Source of the DNA: Thermomonas sp. XSG
GTDB lineage: Bacteria; Pseudomonadota; Gammaproteobacteria; Xanthomonadales; Xanthomonadaceae
DNA: 64,000 nucleotides
Assembly (NCBI RefSeq): GCF_014678725.1
Contig: NZ_CP061497.1
Location: 2,806,001 to 2,870,000, forward strand
Direction: 5' to 3'
The position numbers were made by a program, and so were the translations under genes. A model generated the notes under the pieces. It had not been told where the DNA came from. It did not search any database and saw nothing but the letters and a program-made list of their open reading frames with translations. Positions 4,354 through 14,290 of this stretch are shown here, one piece after another; positions within the stretch are counted from its first letter, which is position 1, and each line of letters starts with the position of its first letter.

Positions 4354-6753
4354 ATGTCACAGACCTTGATTGCCGAAGCGCCCGCCGAAGCCCCGGCCGC
4401 CGCGCCCGCGTTCGACCTCACCCCGCCACCCACCGCCACCGCCATGGCGGTGACCAAGCGCAACGGCAGCACCGAGCCGGTCGATCTCAACAAGATCGTG
4501 CGCGCCGTCCAGCGCTGCTGCGACGGGCTGCATGCGGTGGATCCGATGCGCGTCGCCACCCGCACCATCTCCGGCCTGTACAACGGCGCGACCACGCAGG
4601 AGCTGGACGAGCTGTCGATCCGCACCGCCGCGCTGCTGATCGGCGAAGAACCCGAATACGGCCGGCTGGCCGCGCGCCTGCTGGCCAACACCATCACCAA
4701 GGAAGTCTCCGGCCAGGAGATCCACGCGTTCTCGCAGTCGGTTGGCCGCGGCCACGAAGTGGGCCTGATCAACGACCGCCTGCTCGGCTTCGTACAGGCC
4801 AACGCGCGCAAGCTCAACGATGCCATCGACCCGGCGCTGGACCTGGGTTTCGACTATTTCGGCCTGCGCACCCTGTACGACCGTTACCTGCTGCGCCACC
4901 CGCACACCCGCAAGGTGATCGAGACACCGCAGCAGTTCTTCCTGCGCATCGCCAGCGCCTTGAGCGAGGACGTGCCGGAAGCGTTGGCGCTGTACCAGCG
5001 GCTGGGCCACCTGGACTACCTGCCGTCCAGCCCGACCCTGTTCAACGCCGGCACCCGCCATGAGCAGCTGTCGTCGTGCTTCCTGCTGGATTCTCCGCAG
5101 GATTCGCTGGAGTCGATCTACGCGCGCTACGGCGAGATCGCCCAGCTGTCGAAGTTCAGCGGCGGGATCGGCGTGAGTTATTCGCGGGTGCGTTCGCGCG
5201 GCTCGCTGATCCGTTCCACCAACGGCCATTCCAACGGCATTGTTCCGTGGCTGAAGACGCTGGATTCGTCGGTGGCGGCGGTCAACCAGGGCGGCAAGCG
5301 CAAGGGCGCAGCCTGCGTCTACCTGGAAACCTGGCATGCCGACATCGAGGACTTCCTGGAACTGCGCGACAACGCCGGCGACGAGGCGCGCCGCACCCAC
5401 AATCTCAACCTCGCCAACTGGGTGCCGGACCTGTTCATGCAGCGGGTGGAGGCTGGCCAAGACTGGTCGCTGTTCGATCCGCACGCGGTGCCGGAGTTCA
5501 CCGACCTGTACGGCGCGGATTTCGAGCGCGCCTACCTGCAGGCCGAGGCGCAGGGCAAGGCGGCGCGCACGATCCCGGCGCGCAAGCTGTACGCGCGGAT
5601 GATGCGGACGCTGGCCGAGACCGGCAACGGCTGGATGACCTTCAAGGACAAGTGCAACCGCGCCGGCAACCAGACCCTGCGCCCGCACAACGTCATCCAC
5701 CTGTCCAACCTGTGCACCGAGATCCTGGAGGTCACCAGCGCCGAGGAAACGGCGGTGTGCAACCTCGGCTCGATCAACCTCGCGCACCACCTGGACGCGC
5801 ATGGCGATTTCGATTTCGAGAAATTGGCCGAAACCGTGCGGTTGGCGGTGCGCCAGCTCGACCGGGTGATCGACCTCAATTTCTATCCGATCGAACCGGC
5901 CCGCCGCGGCAACCTGCGTTGGCGGCCGGTGGGGCTGGGCTGCATGGGCCTGCAGGACGTGTTCTTCCGCATGCGCCTGGCGTTCGACTCGGAACCGGCG
6001 CGCGCGCTGTCGAAGCGGATTGCCGAGGAGATCTACTTCCACGCGCTCGACACCTCCTGCGAATTGGCCATCGAGCGTGGCGCGCATGCTTCGTTCGCCG
6101 ATACCCGCGCCTCCGTCGGCGAGCTGCAGTTCGATGCCTGGGGCGTGGCGCCGGAACATGCAGGGCGCTGGAACACCCTGCGCGAACGCATCCGGCAGCA
6201 CGGCTTGCGCAACTCGCTGCTGATCGCGATTGCCCCCACCGCCACCATCGCTTCGATCGCCGGCTGCTACGAATGCGTGGAGCCGCAGGTATCCAACCTG
6301 TTCAAGCGCGAAACCCTGTCCGGCGACTTCCTGCAGGTCAACCGCTATCTGGTCGCCGAGCTCAAGCAGCTGGGGCTGTGGACGGCGGAAATGCGCGATG
6401 CGATCAAGCTGGCCGAAGGCTCGATCCAGGACCTGGCGCAGATCCCGGAGACGCTGCGCATGGTCTACCGCACGGTGTGGGAGTTGCCGATGCGCAGCCT
6501 GATCGACATGGCCGCCGAGCGCGGCGCATTCATCGATCAGTCCGCTTCACTCAACCTGTTCATGGAAAGCCCGAGCATCGGCGCGCTGTCGTCCATGTAC
6601 ATGCATGCGTGGAAGCAGGGCATCAAGACCTGCTACTACCTCCGCTCGCGCCCCGCCACCAGGATCGCCAAGACCACCGTGTCCGACTACAGCCCTGCAC
6701 AGGCGGTGGCCTGCTCGCTGGAAAACCCGGAAGCCTGCGAGGCCTGCCAGTGA
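4354..6753 (+). CDS. nrdA: Class I ribonucleoside-diphosphate reductase, alpha subunit
   Basis: Large subunit of the oxygen-dependent reductase that makes dNDPs. The 799-residue protein has an Ala/Pro-rich lead-in (1-30), an N-terminal ATP-cone (about 31-125) for allosteric control, then the barrel. Active-site residues are visible: C242 in SSCFLL, N452-x-C454-x-E456 in NLCTEI, and C469 in CNLGSINL. The C-terminal ACEACQ supplies the redox-shuttle cysteine pair. An RBS (GGAG) precedes the ATG at 4354. The gene sits behind a B12 riboswitch and its stop overlaps the nrdB start, so the two are translationally coupled. Confidence 0.95.
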   Translation: MSQTLIAEAPAEAPAAAPAFDLTPPPTATAMAVTKRNGSTEPVDLNKIVRAVQRCCDGLHAVDPMRVATRTISGLYNGATTQELDELSIRTAALLIGEEPEYGRLAARLLANTITKEVSGQEIHAFSQSVGRGHEVGLINDRLLGFVQANARKLNDAIDPALDLGFDYFGLRTLYDRYLLRHPHTRKVIETPQQFFLRIASALSEDVPEALALYQRLGHLDYLPSSPTLFNAGTRHEQLSSCFLLDSPQDSLESIYARYGEIAQLSKFSGGIGVSYSRVRSRGSLIRSTNGHSNGIVPWLKTLDSSVAAVNQGGKRKGAACVYLETWHADIEDFLELRDNAGDEARRTHNLNLANWVPDLFMQRVEAGQDWSLFDPHAVPEFTDLYGADFERAYLQAEAQGKAARTIPARKLYARMMRTLAETGNGWMTFKDKCNRAGNQTLRPHNVIHLSNLCTEILEVTSAEETAVCNLGSINLAHHLDAHGDFDFEKLAETVRLAVRQLDRVIDLNFYPIEPARRGNLRWRPVGLGCMGLQDVFFRMRLAFDSEPARALSKRIAEEIYFHALDTSCELAIERGAHASFADTRASVGELQFDAWGVAPEHAGRWNTLRERIRQHGLRNSLLIAIAPTATIASIAGCYECVEPQVSNLFKRETLSGDFLQVNRYLVAELKQLGLWTAEMRDAIKLAEGSIQDLAQIPETLRMVYRTVWELPMRSLIDMAAERGAFIDQSASLNLFMESPSIGALSSMYMHAWKQGIKTCYYLRSRPATRIAKTTVSDYSPAQAVACSLENPEACEACQ

Positions 6754-7772
6754 ACGCCCCCCAATCCCGCCAGATGCTGCTCGACCCCGGTTTCGAGCTG
6801 ACCCTCCGCCCGATGCGCTATCCGGGCTTCTACGAGATGTACCGCAACGCCATCCGCAACAGCTGGACGGTGGACGAGATCAACTTCCAGATCGACATCG
6901 CCGACCTGCACGCAAAGATGTCGCCGGCCGACCGCCACCTGATCCATCGGCTGGTGGCGTTCTTCGCCACCGGCGATTCCATCGTCTCCAACAACCTGGT
7001 GCTGAACCTGTACCAGCACCTCAATGCGCCGGAAGCGCGCATGTACCTGTCGCGCCAGCTGTACGAGGAGGCGCTGCATGTGCAGTTCTACCTGACGTTG
7101 CTGGACAACTACCTGCCCGATCCGGAAGAGCGCTTCAAGGCGTTCGCGGCGGTGGAGAACATCCCGGCCATCAGGAAGAAGGCCGAGTTTTGCTTCAAGT
7201 GGATCGATTCACTGCAAGACCTGCGGCGCATCGAAACTCGCGCGCAGCGCCGCCAGTTCCTGCTCAACCAGATCTGCTTCGCCGCCTGCATCGAGGGCCT
7301 GTTCTTCTTCGCTGCCTTCGCCTACGTCTACTACTTCCGCTCGCGCGGGCTGCTGCCGGGGCTGTCGTCCGGCACCAACTGGGTGTTCCGCGACGAAAGC
7401 TGCCACATGGACTTCGCCTTTGAATGCGTGCGCACCATCCGCGCCGAGGAGCCGGACCTGTTCGACGATGAGATGGAGCGGCAGGTGCGCGACATGCTCG
7501 CCGAGGCCATCGAATGCGAGGTGCAGTTTGCCGAGGACGTGCTGTCCGGCGGCGTGGCCGGCATTTCGATCCGCGACATGCGCCAGTACCTGCAGCACTG
7601 CGCCGACCAGCATTTCGCCAAGCTCGGCATGGCCAGGCAGTACCACGTGCGCAACCCGCTGCCGTTCATGGAGCTGCAGGATGTGCAGGAACTGACCAAC
7701 TTCTTCGAACGCCGGGTGTCCGCCTACCAGGTCGGGGTGCAGGGCGAGGTGGAGTTCGACCATGCCTTCTGA
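6750..7772 (+). CDS. nrdB: Class I ribonucleotide reductase, beta subunit (radical-generating)
   Basis: Small subunit that carries the dimetal site and the stable radical used by NrdA. Translation starts at a GTG whose last bases overlap the nrdA stop (GTGA). The ligand pattern fits a tyrosyl-radical enzyme: D76 (GDSIVSN), E107 and H110 in YEEALHVQFY, and Y114 at the position of E. coli Y122. A Tyr there argues against the class Ic (Mn/Fe, Phe) type. At 340 residues the length is typical. It is co-transcribed with nrdA under the riboswitch and overlaps the next gene by 11 nt. Confidence 0.94.
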   Translation: MNAPQSRQMLLDPGFELTLRPMRYPGFYEMYRNAIRNSWTVDEINFQIDIADLHAKMSPADRHLIHRLVAFFATGDSIVSNNLVLNLYQHLNAPEARMYLSRQLYEEALHVQFYLTLLDNYLPDPEERFKAFAAVENIPAIRKKAEFCFKWIDSLQDLRRIETRAQRRQFLLNQICFAACIEGLFFFAAFAYVYYFRSRGLLPGLSSGTNWVFRDESCHMDFAFECVRTIRAEEPDLFDDEMERQVRDMLAEAIECEVQFAEDVLSGGVAGISIRDMRQYLQHCADQHFAKLGMARQYHVRNPLPFMELQDVQELTNFFERRVSAYQVGVQGEVEFDHAF

Positions 7773-8163
7773 GCCGGTGCGTCCGCTCGAGGCGAAGCTG
7801 CAGGAGATCGTCTTCCCCGACCATGCCAACCACCTGGGCACGCTGTTCGGCGGGCAGGCGCTGGCGTGGATGGACAAGGCCGCGTTCATCGCCGCTTCGC
7901 GCTACGCGCGCAGGACGGTGGTGACGGCGCGTTCGGAGCAGGTGGATTTCCGCCTGCCGATCCGCCAGGGCCAGCTGGTGGAAGTGCTGGCGCGGATCGT
8001 CGAGGTCGGCCGCAGTTCGATGCAGGTGGAGGTGGAACTGATCGCCGAAGACCTGCTGGGCGGCGAACGCGAGCTGTGCACGCGCGGGCGCTTCACCATG
8101 ATCGCGCTGGATGGGCGCGGGCGGCCGACCGGGATCCCGGCACTGTCCGAGCACCCGCCGTAG
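7762..8163 (+). CDS. Acyl-CoA thioesterase, hotdog fold (YciA/BFIT type)
   Basis: Hydrolyses acyl-CoA to free acid and CoA. The 133-residue single hotdog domain carries the family motif around H24 and GTLFGGQALAWMD (26-38), with D38 as likely catalytic acid. The start at 7762 overlaps the end of nrdB by 11 nt, so the gene is probably read as the third cistron of the nrdAB transcript. There is no obvious metabolic link to nucleotide reduction. Substrate chain length cannot be read from sequence. Confidence 0.85.
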   Translation: MPSEPVRPLEAKLQEIVFPDHANHLGTLFGGQALAWMDKAAFIAASRYARRTVVTARSEQVDFRLPIRQGQLVEVLARIVEVGRSSMQVEVELIAEDLLGGERELCTRGRFTMIALDGRGRPTGIPALSEHPP

Positions 8164-8217: not shown

Positions 8218-8403
8218 CTATGGGTGGGCGTCGGGATGGCGGGCCAGCCACGCCGCCAGCGTCTGCCGGTAATGCGCCAGTGCTTCGGCGTAGGTGTCGT
8301 TGACGCAGGGATCGCAACCGCTGTCGCAGCAGTCGCTGGGCAGCGGCGCTTCCGGCGGCTGCGGGCGCGGATCGGGATCGAGGCGGGGCAGGGGAATCGG
8401 CAT
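8218..8403 (-). CDS. Small cysteine-rich protein, oxidoreductase-like domain
   Basis: A 61-residue protein with a Pro-rich N-terminus followed by the pattern PSDCCDSGCDPCV (Cys at 25, 26, 30, 33) and a short helical tail ending WLARHPDAHP. This matches the small 'oxidoreductase-like, N-terminal' family, whose biochemical role is undefined. The four clustered cysteines suggest metal or Fe-S binding (inference). It is convergent with the thioesterase gene and divergent from nrdD. A GATAAT ends 7 nt before the ATG, so the transcript may be leaderless. Longer in-frame starts (to 8613) lack support. Confidence 0.7.
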   Translation of the reverse strand: MPIPLPRLDPDPRPQPPEAPLPSDCCDSGCDPCVNDTYAEALAHYRQTLAAWLARHPDAHP

Positions 8404-8416
8404 GGCCGCAATTATC
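8401..8416 (-). promoter_or_regulatory. Possible leaderless promoter (GATAAT-N7-ATG)
   Basis: On the reverse strand GATAAT (8416-8411) lies 7 nt before the start codon of the small cysteine-rich gene. This is one nucleotide longer than the N6 spacing at other genes, so it is a weaker member of the set. No Shine-Dalgarno is seen. Confidence 0.35.
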
Positions 8417-8503
8417 CATGCCCGTGCATGAGGCGGAAATGAGCCGGCGGCGCTGGCCGGTGCTTTCCGCAAATCAATTTGTCGCAAGTTCAAGGAGAGG
8501 ACG

Positions 8504-10279
8504 ATGCAACCAAGCAGTCCCACAGCCATGGCCGGGCGCAGCCTGGTCGATCCGGTCAGCTCGGTCGAGGAATACCTGACCCGCGCGGACTGGCGGGTCA
8601 ATGCCAACGCCAACCAGGGCTATTCGCTGGGCGGGCTGATCCTCAACGTCGCCGGCAAGGTGACCGCCAATTACTGGCTGGAGAAGATCTATCCGCCGGA
8701 GATCGGCCGCGCCCATCGCGAGGCCGACCTGCACATCCACGACCTCGACATGCTCTCCGGCTACTGCGCTGGCTGGTCGCTGCGCACGCTGCTGTACGAA
8801 GGCTTCAACGGCGTGCCCAACAAGGTCGAGGCCGGCCCGCCCAGGCATCTGTCGTCGGCGGTCGGGCAGATCGTCAACTTCCTCGGCACCCTGCAGAACG
8901 AATGGGCGGGCGCGCAGGCGTTCTCCTCGTTCGACACCTACATGGCGCCGTTCGTGCGCAAGGACGCGCTGTCCTACGACGACGTGCGCCAGTGCATCCA
9001 GGAGCTGATCTTCAACCTCAACGTGCCCTCGCGCTGGGGCACGCAGACGCCGTTCACCAACCTCACCTTCGACTGGATCTGTCCCGCCGACCTGCGCCAC
9101 CAGACCCCGTTCATCGGCGGCGAGGAGATGCCGTTCACCTACGGCGAACTGCAGGCCGAGATGGACCTGATCAACCGCGCCTACATCGAGGTGATGAGCG
9201 CGGGCGACGCGCGCGGCCGGGTGTTCACCTTCCCGATCCCCACCTACAACATCACCGCCGACTTCCCGTGGGATTCGGAAAACGCGCGGCTGTTGTTCGA
9301 CATGACCGCGAAATACGGCCTGCCGTACTTCCAGAACTTCATCAATTCCGAGCTGGACCCGGGGATGATCCGCTCGATGTGCTGCCGCCTGCAGCTCGAT
9401 CTGCGCGAGCTGCTCAAGCGCGGCAACGGCCTGTTCGGCAGCGCCGAGCAGACCGGCAGCCTGGGCGTGGTGACGGTCAACTGCGCGCGGCTGGGCTACC
9501 TGCACCGCGGCGATGAGGCCGGGCTGTTCGCTCGGCTGGACGAGCTGCTGGAGCTGGGCCGGCGCAGCCTGGAGATCAAGCGCACCACCATCCAGCAGCT
9601 GATCGACGACGGCCTGTACCCGTACACCAAGCGCTACCTCGGCACCCTGCGCAACCATTTCTCGACGCTGGGGGTGAACGGCATCAACGAGATGGTCCGC
9701 AACTTCACCTCCGATGCGCACGACCTGACCAGCGAGTGGGGCCATGCATTCGCCCTGCGCCTGCTCGACCACGTTCGTGCGCGGATGGTGGAGTTCCAGG
9801 AAGCCACCGGCCAGCTCTACAACCTCGAAGCCACGCCGGCCGAAGGCACCACCTACCGCTTCGCCAAGGAGGACCGCCGCCGCTGGCCGGACATCCTGCA
9901 GGCGGGCAGCCGCGACCGTCCTTACTACACCAATTCCTCGCAGCTGCCGGTGGGCTTCACCGACGACCCGTTCGAAGCGCTGGAGCGGCAGGAAGCGCTG
10001 CAGTCGCGCTACACCGGCGGCACCGTGCTGCACCTGTACATGGGCGAACGCCTGTCCAGCGGCGATGCCTGCCGCGACCTGGTGCGGCGCGCGCTGAGCC
10101 GCTTCCGCCTGCCCTACATCACGATCACGCCAACTTTCTCGATCTGCCCGGAGCACGGCTACCTGGCGGGCGAGCACGAATTCTGCCCGCGCTGCGACGA
10201 GCGGCTGCTGGCGGAACTGCAGGCGGCCGCCGCGCCGACCATTACCGACGTCACGTTCCACGAGGAGATTTCCGCATGA
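8504..10279 (+). CDS. nrdD: Class III anaerobic ribonucleoside-triphosphate reductase, catalytic part without glycyl domain
   Basis: Oxygen-independent reductase of NTPs. The 591-residue ORF has an RBS (CAAGGAGAGG) before its ATG. It begins directly at the catalytic barrel, without the N-terminal ATP-cone found in E. coli NrdD. Near the C-terminus a zinc-ribbon-like site is visible: C548/H551 and C561/C564. The ORF then stops. The glycyl-radical segment that normally follows the zinc site is missing here and is encoded by the next, overlapping ORF. nrdG follows that. Alternatively the break is a frameshift, but the clean ATGA junction argues against it. Confidence 0.9.
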   Translation: MQPSSPTAMAGRSLVDPVSSVEEYLTRADWRVNANANQGYSLGGLILNVAGKVTANYWLEKIYPPEIGRAHREADLHIHDLDMLSGYCAGWSLRTLLYEGFNGVPNKVEAGPPRHLSSAVGQIVNFLGTLQNEWAGAQAFSSFDTYMAPFVRKDALSYDDVRQCIQELIFNLNVPSRWGTQTPFTNLTFDWICPADLRHQTPFIGGEEMPFTYGELQAEMDLINRAYIEVMSAGDARGRVFTFPIPTYNITADFPWDSENARLLFDMTAKYGLPYFQNFINSELDPGMIRSMCCRLQLDLRELLKRGNGLFGSAEQTGSLGVVTVNCARLGYLHRGDEAGLFARLDELLELGRRSLEIKRTTIQQLIDDGLYPYTKRYLGTLRNHFSTLGVNGINEMVRNFTSDAHDLTSEWGHAFALRLLDHVRARMVEFQEATGQLYNLEATPAEGTTYRFAKEDRRRWPDILQAGSRDRPYYTNSSQLPVGFTDDPFEALERQEALQSRYTGGTVLHLYMGERLSSGDACRDLVRRALSRFRLPYITITPTFSICPEHGYLAGEHEFCPRCDERLLAELQAAAAPTITDVTFHEEISA

Positions 10280-10476
10280 ACAACATCGCCAATTCCGCAA
10301 TATCCGCCGCCGCTTCGCTGCGCAACGAAGACCGCCAGCGCTGCGAAGTGTGGACCCGGGTGATGGGTTACCACCGCCCGGTGTCCAGCTTCAACATCGG
10401 CAAGCAGGGCGAGCACGCCGAGCGCTGCTTCTTCAGCGAACGCCCGCGCGCCACGCTGGCCGCCGCCGCCGCATGA
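10276..10476 (+). CDS. Stand-alone glycyl-radical domain of class III RNR (NrdD C-terminal part)
   Basis: A 66-residue ORF starts in the ATGA overlap with the nrdD stop and ends in an ATGA overlap with nrdG. It contains the block that normally ends NrdD: RQRCEVWTRVMGYHRP followed by GKQGEH, with G31 in RVMGY as the expected glycyl-radical residue. Residues 1-17 are a low-complexity lead-in. NrdG would install the radical on G31, and the small protein would have to dock on the large NrdD part, as YfiD does for pyruvate formate-lyase (analogy). No slippery heptamer was seen at the junction, so coupled translation of two polypeptides is the simplest reading. Confidence 0.82.
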   Translation: MNNIANSAISAAASLRNEDRQRCEVWTRVMGYHRPVSSFNIGKQGEHAERCFFSERPRATLAAAAA

Positions 10477-11138
10477 TCCGCGTCGGCGGGATGACGCCGC
10501 TGACCAGCATCGACTTCCCCGGTCGGCTGGCGGCGGTGTTGTACCTGCAAGGCTGTCCCTGGCGCTGCGGCTACTGCCACAACCCCGAACTGCTGCCGGC
10601 GCGTGGGCAGGGCGGGGTTGCCTGGGCGCAGGCCGAAGCGTTCCTGCACCGCCGCGTCGGCCTGCTCGACGCGGTGGTGTTCTCCGGCGGCGAGCCGACC
10701 TCACAGGCCGCGCTGCCCGACGCCATCGCGCAGGTGAAGGCGATGTGCTACCAGGTCGGCCTGCATACCAGCGGCATGTATCCGGCACGCCTGCGCCAGC
10801 TGCTGCCGCAGCTGGACTGGATCGGGCTGGACATCAAGGCGCCCGACGCGCATTACGACGCGGTGACCGGCCGCCGCGACAGCGCGCGTCCGGTGGGCGA
10901 GGCGCTGGAGGCGGTGCTGGCCAGCGGCGTGGCTTACGAATGCCGGACCACCTGGCATCCGGGGCTGTTCCCGCTGCCGGCGCTGTATGGCTTGGCGGAA
11001 GACCTGTTCGCGCGCGGCGTGCGTCACTGGGCGCTGCAGGAATGCCGCGAGGAAGGGCGCGGGCTGGTGGCGGAAGCCACGCTGGACCTGCAGCGGCTGG
11101 GTGCGGGGTTCGAGCGCTTCTGTTTCCGTCGCGGCTGA
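10473..11138 (+). CDS. nrdG: Anaerobic RNR-activating radical SAM protein
   Basis: Generates the glycyl radical on class III reductase by reductive cleavage of S-adenosylmethionine. The 221-residue protein has the radical SAM cluster motif CPWRCGYC (C28, C32, C35) and the GGE-type motif in FSGGEPT. Its ATG overlaps the stop of the glycyl-domain ORF (ATGA), so three cistrons form one coupled unit. It is longer than E. coli NrdG (about 154 residues) and resembles the longer NrdG type seen in Pseudomonas. Confidence 0.92.
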   Translation: MIRVGGMTPLTSIDFPGRLAAVLYLQGCPWRCGYCHNPELLPARGQGGVAWAQAEAFLHRRVGLLDAVVFSGGEPTSQAALPDAIAQVKAMCYQVGLHTSGMYPARLRQLLPQLDWIGLDIKAPDAHYDAVTGRRDSARPVGEALEAVLASGVAYECRTTWHPGLFPLPALYGLAEDLFARGVRHWALQECREEGRGLVAEATLDLQRLGAGFERFCFRRG

Positions 11139-13162: not shown

Positions 13163-13207
13163 GTAACCTCCCCCGTCAAGCGGACATTTCAAAAGTAGAA
13201 CGTCTGG
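13163..13207 (+). repeat. Left inverted repeat of the IS3 element
   Basis: Begins GTAACCTCCCCC and matches the reverse complement of the right end (14358 leftwards) over the first 12 nt exactly, and again at GGACA, AAGTAGA and TCTGGC. The orfB stop codon (13176-13178) lies inside this repeat. Confidence 0.8.
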
Positions 13208-14036
13208 CGGGTTGGTTGCGGTACTCGATGGGCGTCATGCCGTTGAGTGCGTCGTGCTCCCGGTGCTCGTTGTAGTCGATGAGGAAGCGCCACGTGGCTT
13301 CGCGGACATCGTCCAGTCGGGCGAACAGGTAGCGGTCGAGCACATCCTCGCGGTAGGTGCGGTTGAAGCGCTCGATGTAGGCGTTCTGGTTGGGTTTGCC
13401 GGGCTGGATGTACTGGATCGCCATGCCGTTGGCCTTGGCCCATGCGGTGAAGGCTTCCCCCAGGAACTCCGGTCCGTTGTCGGTACGCAGCACCTGCGGG
13501 AGCGGCCGTTCCTGGCGGATCTGCTCGAAGATCCGCACCAACCGCTGCGAAGTGATCGAGGTGTCGACTTCGATATGCACGATCTCCCGATTGAAGTCGT
13601 CGATGATGTTGAAGGTGCGGAAGCTGCGGCCACAGGCCAGCGCATCGAGCATGAAGTCGGCGGACCACACGATGTCGGGGTGCTCGGGCACGTACAGCGG
13701 TACGCACTCGCGCTTGGGCAGGCGACGGCTGGCGGCACGGCGCAAGTTGAGCTTCATGGCGCAGTACACCCGGTAGATCCGCTTGTCGTTCCAGTGCGGA
13801 TGGCTCTTCGCCAAGCGCTGGCAGCACTTCCCGAACCCACGACTGGGGCGTTCCTCCACCAGCTTCGCCAGTGCGGCAATCAGTTCGGCATCCCGCACCG
13901 TCCAGTCCAACGGCGGCGCATACCAGGCCGAGCGCGACAGGCCGACACAGTCGCAGGACCGGCGGAGCGGGCGGCCCTGCGTCTCCACCAGGAACCGCAC
14001 CGCCTCGCGCTTCTGCGCCGGCCCTACAGTTTTTTT
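13176..14036 (-). CDS. IS3-family transposase OrfB (DDE integrase part)
   Basis: Catalytic half of the transposase, normally made as an OrfAB fusion by -1 frameshift at seven A residues (14036-14030 on this strand). The rve/integrase core is intact: D in VWSADFM, D in LRTDNGPEF, and E in YIERFNRTY give the DDE triad. An HTH_21-like region (AALAKLVEERPSRGFG) precedes the core. There is no stop in the frame beyond the frameshift site up to 14210, so no separate OrfB start is needed. Confidence 0.9.
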   Translation of the reverse strand, partial: KKTVGPAQKREAVRFLVETQGRPLRRSCDCVGLSRSAWYAPPLDWTVRDAELIAALAKLVEERPSRGFGKCCQRLAKSHPHWNDKRIYRVYCAMKLNLRRAASRRLPKRECVPLYVPEHPDIVWSADFMLDALACGRSFRTFNIIDDFNREIVHIEVDTSITSQRLVRIFEQIRQERPLPQVLRTDNGPEFLGEAFTAWAKANGMAIQYIQPGKPNQNAYIERFNRTYREDVLDRYLFARLDDVREATWRFLIDYNEHREHDALNGMTPIEYRNQPARRSTFEMSA

Positions 14037-14290
14037 GCGATCAACTCCTTCATCGCGGCAATGTCCAGTGCCTGCTCTGCGTACATCCGCTTGAGCTTGG
14101 CGTTCTCGGCTTCCAGATCCTTGACCCGCCTCAGGTCCGACGCCTCCATGCCGCCGTACTTCGACTTCCATTGGTAGTAGGTGGCGGTGCTGATCCCGGC
14201 CTGTCGACACAGATCCTTGATCGGAACGCCGATGTCGCCCTGCTTGAGGATGGCGACGATCTGGGTCTCGCTGAACTTCGACTTCTTCAT
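14024..14290 (-). CDS. IS3-family transposase OrfA (DNA-binding part)
   Basis: An 88-residue helix-turn-helix protein with the typical opening MKKSKFSETQIVAILKQG and the HTH CRQAGISTATYYQWK. A leucine-zipper-like tail (LEAENAKLKRMYAEQ) follows. It binds the IS ends and provides the N-terminal part of the OrfAB transposase. It ends AKKL at a stop just after the A7 slip site. The sequence resembles the IS407/IS2-like branch of the IS3 family. Confidence 0.92.
   Translation of the reverse strand: MKKSKFSETQIVAILKQGDIGVPIKDLCRQAGISTATYYQWKSKYGGMEASDLRRVKDLEAENAKLKRMYAEQALDIAAMKELIAKKL

Follow-up and report, generated by a model that had tools for sequence, protein, structure and literature searches.

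Organization of the locus

The window, a 64,000-nucleotide stretch of the Thermomonas sp. XSG genome (a single contig of 3.05 Mb, rated 100% complete), carries on its forward strand three overlapping genes of class III ribonucleotide reductase (RNR) type: an nrdD body of 591 residues (8504–10279), a separate glycyl-radical ORF of 66 residues (10276–10476) and an nrdG of 221 residues (10473–11138). A first-pass annotation of the sequence had described an nrdD that ends past its zinc knuckle and is joined via two successive ATGA overlaps to the small ORF and the downstream nrdG; its coordinates, lengths and overlaps proved exact. Within nrdD, an AGGAG Shine-Dalgarno (SD) sequence for the small ORF is located at 10263–10267, with a spacing of 8. 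A mobile insert between the two parts, such as an intron, intein or homing endonuclease, is ruled out, as the window ORFs overlap by 4 bases.

The 562 positions of PF13597 were matched in two parts, positions 2–529 by the body and 532–561 by the 66-residue ORF, each of which passes the family cut-off on its own (30.6 bits for the small ORF; cut-off 26.2). The radical segment thus forms an ORF in its own right, as the annotation had maintained, and NCBIfam returned only NrdD models for it. The body is an NrdD of the NF006126/PRK08270 type (1043 bits, cut-off 548; profile positions 96–650 of 684) and also scores above the cut-off of TIGR02487, a profile for class III RNR membership; Pfam revealed no ATP-cone in it. 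The third ORF is an NrdG2 radical SAM activase, the expected NrdG partner (TIGR02495, 187 bits, cut-off 131; PF04055). A structural model of the body (mean pLDDT 72.5) retrieved class III RNRs exclusively at Foldseek ranks 1–36 (E 5e-23 to 4e-19, TM 0.56–0.65), while the small chain modelled alone gave no confident prediction (pLDDT 59).

The body comprises the barrel, a finger loop and a zinc knuckle. The finger-loop cysteines expected of a class III RNR are found in an MCCR motif read from the sequence (M292-C293-C294-R295; 9377–9388), C293 and C294 being invariant among 44 aligned bodies; according to a section of a published article, class III finger loops fall into two lineages, and MCCR characterizes one of them (PMC9669993). 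Residues C548, H551, C561 and C564 (10145–10195), likewise read from the sequence, are predicted to form the zinc knuckle by analogy with class III RNRs; C548 and H551 are invariant and C561 nearly so in an alignment (A3) whose relatives stop near there. The C-terminal radical glycine that class III enzymes usually carry in the same chain lies here in the separate ORF. In an alignment, RVMGYHRPVSSFN from a fused relative corresponds to RIVGYLVPVSAFN of T. maritima NrdD, and the radical glycine is accordingly predicted to be G31 of the small ORF, within RVMGY (10366–10368), a residue that does not vary among 26 aligned small ORFs.

Conservation of the two-gene arrangement

A scan of named genomes yielded at least 522 stretches that encode relatives of the locus, out of 580 matched; the best 80 relatives (77–96% identical) were used. 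The split was found in all 80 and nrdG lies inside the locus in 79; a continuous nrdD in relatives, which the annotation had named as a finding that would speak against it, did not occur among these 80, and 16 fused genes were encountered in the wider family. The comparison of related loci that the annotation proposed revealed the same ATGA split in two genomes of the same genus (G015 and G024). In G025, which belongs to another genus, both parts share one frame; a stop codon, a run of eight codons and an ATG preceded by an SD sequence come between them. The conservation of the split in relatives, including another genus with another frame relation, indicates that it reflects more than chance. 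A sequencing error is rejected, since G015, G024, G025 and the best 80 relatives are split too.

Judged by sequence matches, the split class III RNR occurs in Alpha-, Beta- and Gammaproteobacteria as well as on one Campylobacterota plasmid. Within the family of the window organism its distribution is patchy, 14 of 395 genomes having the body. The split operons L084, L093, L089 and L112 (77–81% identical to the window) come from contigs that are short or binned and bear the labels Elusimicrobiota, Acidobacteria or Thermoflexus; they may represent misbinned proteobacterial DNA. In L006 (genome G052, from another family of the same order), the body frame is interrupted and the small ORF downstream is intact.

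On plasmid pHG1 of Cupriavidus necator H16, a body of 676 residues, a 66-residue ORF and nrdG are annotated as three genes, the small ORF bearing the name nrdD. NrdDG is reported, in part of the published account, to be essential to complete denitrification in this strain (PMC2864759), and 5138 presumably corresponds to the small ORF. With the split operon present in H16 and NrdDG reported as essential there, it is very probable that the split form is functional in vivo.

Frames, distances and translation signals

We parsed 203 bodies, 179 of them distinct over the last 400 residues, from a locus set to which two of the scans contributed 30 of 31 and 30 of 38 of their matches. Classification by regular expression gave 142 split, 28 fused and nine bodies without a small ORF; on inspection, the last nine resolved into two split, two fused and five unlinked. 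Half of the 28 fused genes (14; L128–L141) are other NrdD types with 22–25% identity, leaving a PRK08270-type set of 165, with 144 split, 16 fused and five unlinked.

Across the 142 split loci, the small ORF lies in frame 0 relative to the body in 39, frame 1 in 48 and frame 2 in 55. The distance from the end of the body to the start of the small ORF ranges from −13 to 376 bases (median 33.5), with 652 bases in L006, whose body is interrupted; a 4-base overlap as in the window is seen in 15. The chosen start is ATG in all 142 loci, and an SD sequence of at least 4 bases precedes 97% of the small ORFs vs. 18% of 4,415 body-internal ATGs, a result favoured by the SD-aided choice of starts.

When 80 body-bearing genomes were searched with a small-ORF profile, the radical piece was matched in every one, the match falling within the fused gene where the genes are fused. 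In five of these genomes the small gene stands apart from the body: G1168, G1051 and G898 carry the two on different contigs, and the separation is about 9 kb in G723 and 2.3 kb in G1176. The small gene adjoins nrdG in four of the five; a reading of 6 kb around it in G898 revealed no nrdG. G898, a 0.7-Mb genome, encodes a stand-alone small ORF of 124 residues with a long N-terminal extension (L220:2707–3081). Frameshifting cannot join such unlinked pairs. Together, the split relatives, varying frames and unlinked genes lend strong support to the two-polypeptide reading put forward in the first-pass annotation.

Fused forms and phylogeny

As 16 family members are fused, function does not depend on the split. 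Among the fused NrdDs examined, 8–12 residues separate the last zinc cysteine from the arginine of RVxGY, with five exceptions bearing longer connectors of 14–50 residues: L143 (Acidiphilium), L144 (Actinomyces oris), L160, L167 and L181. The fused genes L143, L144, L178 and L181 show 75–79% identity. In split genes, the two new ends together amount to a median of 42 residues (22–57, n = 141), and the small chain keeps a conserved ERQxC-like segment.

In a tree, the five genes with longer connectors and L178 (connector of 8) branch from within the split genes, a position that points to re-fusion as their likely origin. Moreover, a fused clade with connectors of 8 takes in a split gene of Sulfuricurvum (L145). 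On this quick tree of 80 rows, with long outgroup branches, split vs. fused states need six changes, and either one fission or several may lie behind the split.

Viral and prophage-like copies of the small protein

Scanning viral contigs with a small-ORF alignment, we confirmed that 200 of 207 stretches encode the small protein. Eighty of these 200 were inspected, some in loci as short as 4 kb; the viral open frame is at most 130 residues long in 66 and longer, with an unsure start, in 14. With one NrdG query, no nrdG was detected near the viral copy in the 80 loci, some of which span 4 kb only. Among 50 whole viral records, which are fragments, 49 match PF13597 solely at its last 50 positions, and 47 pass the family cut-off. 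The single record among the 50 with a real body is L266, the other viral loci among the 80 inspected giving body scores of at most 57. L266 (viral record G1280) is a 64.5-kb contig that carries an NrdD body together with a small ORF distinct from it, and nrdG was not found within its 16-kb locus.

According to PHROGs, the neighbors of viral copies include tail fibre or virion proteins (L243, L251), a tape measure protein (L234), a major head protein (L287), a portal protein (L271), a head-tail adaptor (L313), a head closure protein (L298) and an endolysin (L257). Seven of the 20 scanned neighbors belong to no family with a named role, four lacking any match and three matching only families of more or less unknown function. 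The viral small ORFs are under purifying selection, with a median dN/dS of 0.28 and all values below 1 in 274 pairs with dS of 0.15–1.2. A cysteine-rich N-terminal extension is present in eight of 59 distinct viral small ORFs (L262, L271, L276, L277, L283, L289, L292 and L307). In L271, the PF13597 match extends back to position 513, and a viral protein of this type may bring its own zinc knuckle.

Extra copies of the small gene were found in five of 80 bacterial genomes (G809, G866, G869, G886 and G1214), all of which have a split body. The copy in G1214 is located between endolysin and spanin genes in prophage-like DNA, and that in G869 lies near endolysin and integrase genes, also in prophage-like DNA. 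In G866, a weak and divergent match is found in prophage-like DNA with a tail collar gene nearby; the copies in G809 adjoin genes that read as mobile-element-like, and the one neighbor scanned in G886 gave no match. No close copy was detected in 50,697 isolate phage records, the best matches (E 0.02) falling at places annotated as NrdD or unannotated.

A probable two-chain class III ribonucleotide reductase

We observed two ORFs, conserved widely, with their own translation signals and with unlinked gene pairs in some genomes, and we consider it very likely that they specify a natural two-chain class III (anaerobic) RNR. In such an enzyme, the large chain would bear the barrel, the MCCR finger loop and the zinc knuckle, and the radical glycine would reside on a second polypeptide of some 66 residues, translated independently from a ribosome-binding site of its own. 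This small chain would dock beside the zinc knuckle in place of the C-terminal loop of an ordinary NrdD, its conserved DEERQxC segment being a candidate docking element. NrdG would take hydrogen from G31 of the small chain, and the putative radical on this residue would then start catalysis at the finger-loop cysteines. Oxygen cuts known glycyl radical enzymes at the radical glycine. In a two-chain enzyme, oxygen damage would presumably destroy only the small, replaceable chain.

A single chain produced by programmed frameshifting or readthrough, or a split that is an assembly error, might be considered instead, as slippage is conceivable at 4-base overlaps, which occur in 15 of 142 loci as well as in the window; however, given three frame relations, distances of up to 376 bases in intact loci, SD sequences before the starts and genes that are not adjacent in five genomes, we regard this reading as hardly credible. 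The variable frames and gaps and the genes on different contigs exclude frameshift fusion as a general mechanism. The operon could also be decaying, with the small ORF as a remnant next to a pseudogene. Its patchy occurrence in 14 of 395 family genomes would fit decay, as would a dN/dS of 0.81 for the small ORF in one of seven comparisons with relatives, in which the small ORF (0.22–0.81) evolves faster than the body (0.09–0.38). Yet the low values of the body, the intact catalytic motifs and an arrangement that is the same across classes make decay very improbable.

Within a two-chain enzyme, the small chain might serve as an exchangeable cartridge, the split confining oxygen loss, in bacteria that meet oxygen, to a chain of about 60 residues and phages and mobile elements carrying the cartridge alone; stand-alone and viral or prophage-like copies lend circumstantial support to exchange as a spare part, and on these sequences we hold the idea to be quite possible, if short of probable. 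The enzyme might instead be a fixed heteromer that arose by neutral fission, in which the small chain is assembled once without exchange and the viral copies are chance captures. Fusion and fission both occur on the tree (six changes), as expected of a near-neutral trait, the viral records, not one of which has a completeness rating of 90%, are fragments that could contain host DNA, and a close copy is absent from the 50,697 isolate phage records. On the other hand, the viral copies are under purifying selection, sit among tail, portal, head and lysis genes and, in 49 of 50 records, consist of the radical piece alone. With evidence on both sides, we give the fixed heteromer even chances.

Relation to known systems

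The class III NrdD/NrdG systems of T4, T. maritima, P. copri and S. thermophilus have in common with the window genes the barrel, finger-loop cysteines, zinc knuckle, RVxGY motif and NrdG, but carry the glycine in the same chain, 8–12 residues past the zinc site, whereas it lies in a second chain here. YfiD/GrcA and T4 Y06I, the spare parts of pyruvate formate-lyase, are likewise small free glycyl-radical-loop proteins that also occur in viruses. Unlike YfiD/GrcA, the small ORF has an NRDD-type sequence (PF13597); no YfiD/GrcA-type or Gly_radical Pfam match was found for the window ORF (E up to 1) or for ten other small ORFs (E up to 0.01). The likeness to YfiD drawn in the first-pass annotation may thus apply to function but does not extend to family, since PF13597 alone was matched. 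Moreover, the body here lacks a loop of its own, unlike in the YfiD/GrcA case, so that the small chain would be a subunit first and a spare part second at most.

The split class II RNR NrdJa/NrdJb of Pseudomonas aeruginosa is likewise an RNR encoded by two genes of one operon, both of which are needed, but, as portrayed in part of the relevant report, it is B12-dependent and its small part serves disulfide exchange and bears no radical (PMC4520616). The body in the window is an NRDD, not an NrdJ, and an identity as a split class II RNR was rejected. Phage nrdD genes with introns, inteins or homing endonucleases also occupy more than one ORF, according to a section of PMC3653736; the window split differs in having no insert and in a break at one functional point that is conserved over bacterial classes. 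The window small ORF and nine other small ORFs tried match phrog_4132 (PHROGs v4), which has the same radical block, though the match spans only about residues 113–158 of the 179-residue profile. This family is listed in PHROGs v4 with unknown function and no assigned role.

The annotation knew of no description of a split NrdD. We found none of it or of its viral small subunit in open-licence literature, an earlier mention elsewhere being possible; databases, however, already call the small ORF of relatives "nrdD". In a passage of a 2015 article, RNR specialists called split NrdJ the sole split RNR in a non-viral organism (PMC4520616). In the portion of a 2021 article that bears on the question, spare parts are described as validated for pyruvate formate-lyase only, the authors suggesting that other glycyl radical enzymes may have them as well (PMC8683613). 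The stand-alone viral copies are direct spare-part candidates and render this question testable. With radical and catalytic chain apart, activation, docking and oxygen damage could be studied one chain at a time. If the small chain is exchanged, the system would be the first glycyl radical spare-part system beyond pyruvate formate-lyase; phages would use their cartridge to keep up or take over the DNA-precursor supply of the host in anaerobic infection, phrog_4132 would gain a role, and few viral genes serving nucleotide supply would be smaller than the viral small ORFs.

Gene neighborhood and regulation

Just upstream of the split operon, class I nrdA and nrdB lie on the same strand (4354–8163), with a small thioesterase-like ORF between them; nrdA is found near the split operon in 7 of 81 loci of relatives. 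An FNR-like pattern gave 16 loose matches in the window vs. 5.4 expected, with none within 8300–8504, and the one NrdR-like box pattern tried had no match anywhere in the window. By eye, NrdR-like palindromes can be discerned upstream of nrdD in L003 and L005. About 2 kb downstream of the operon, the translation of an ORF on the reverse strand (13176–14210) reads as that of an IS3-type transposase.
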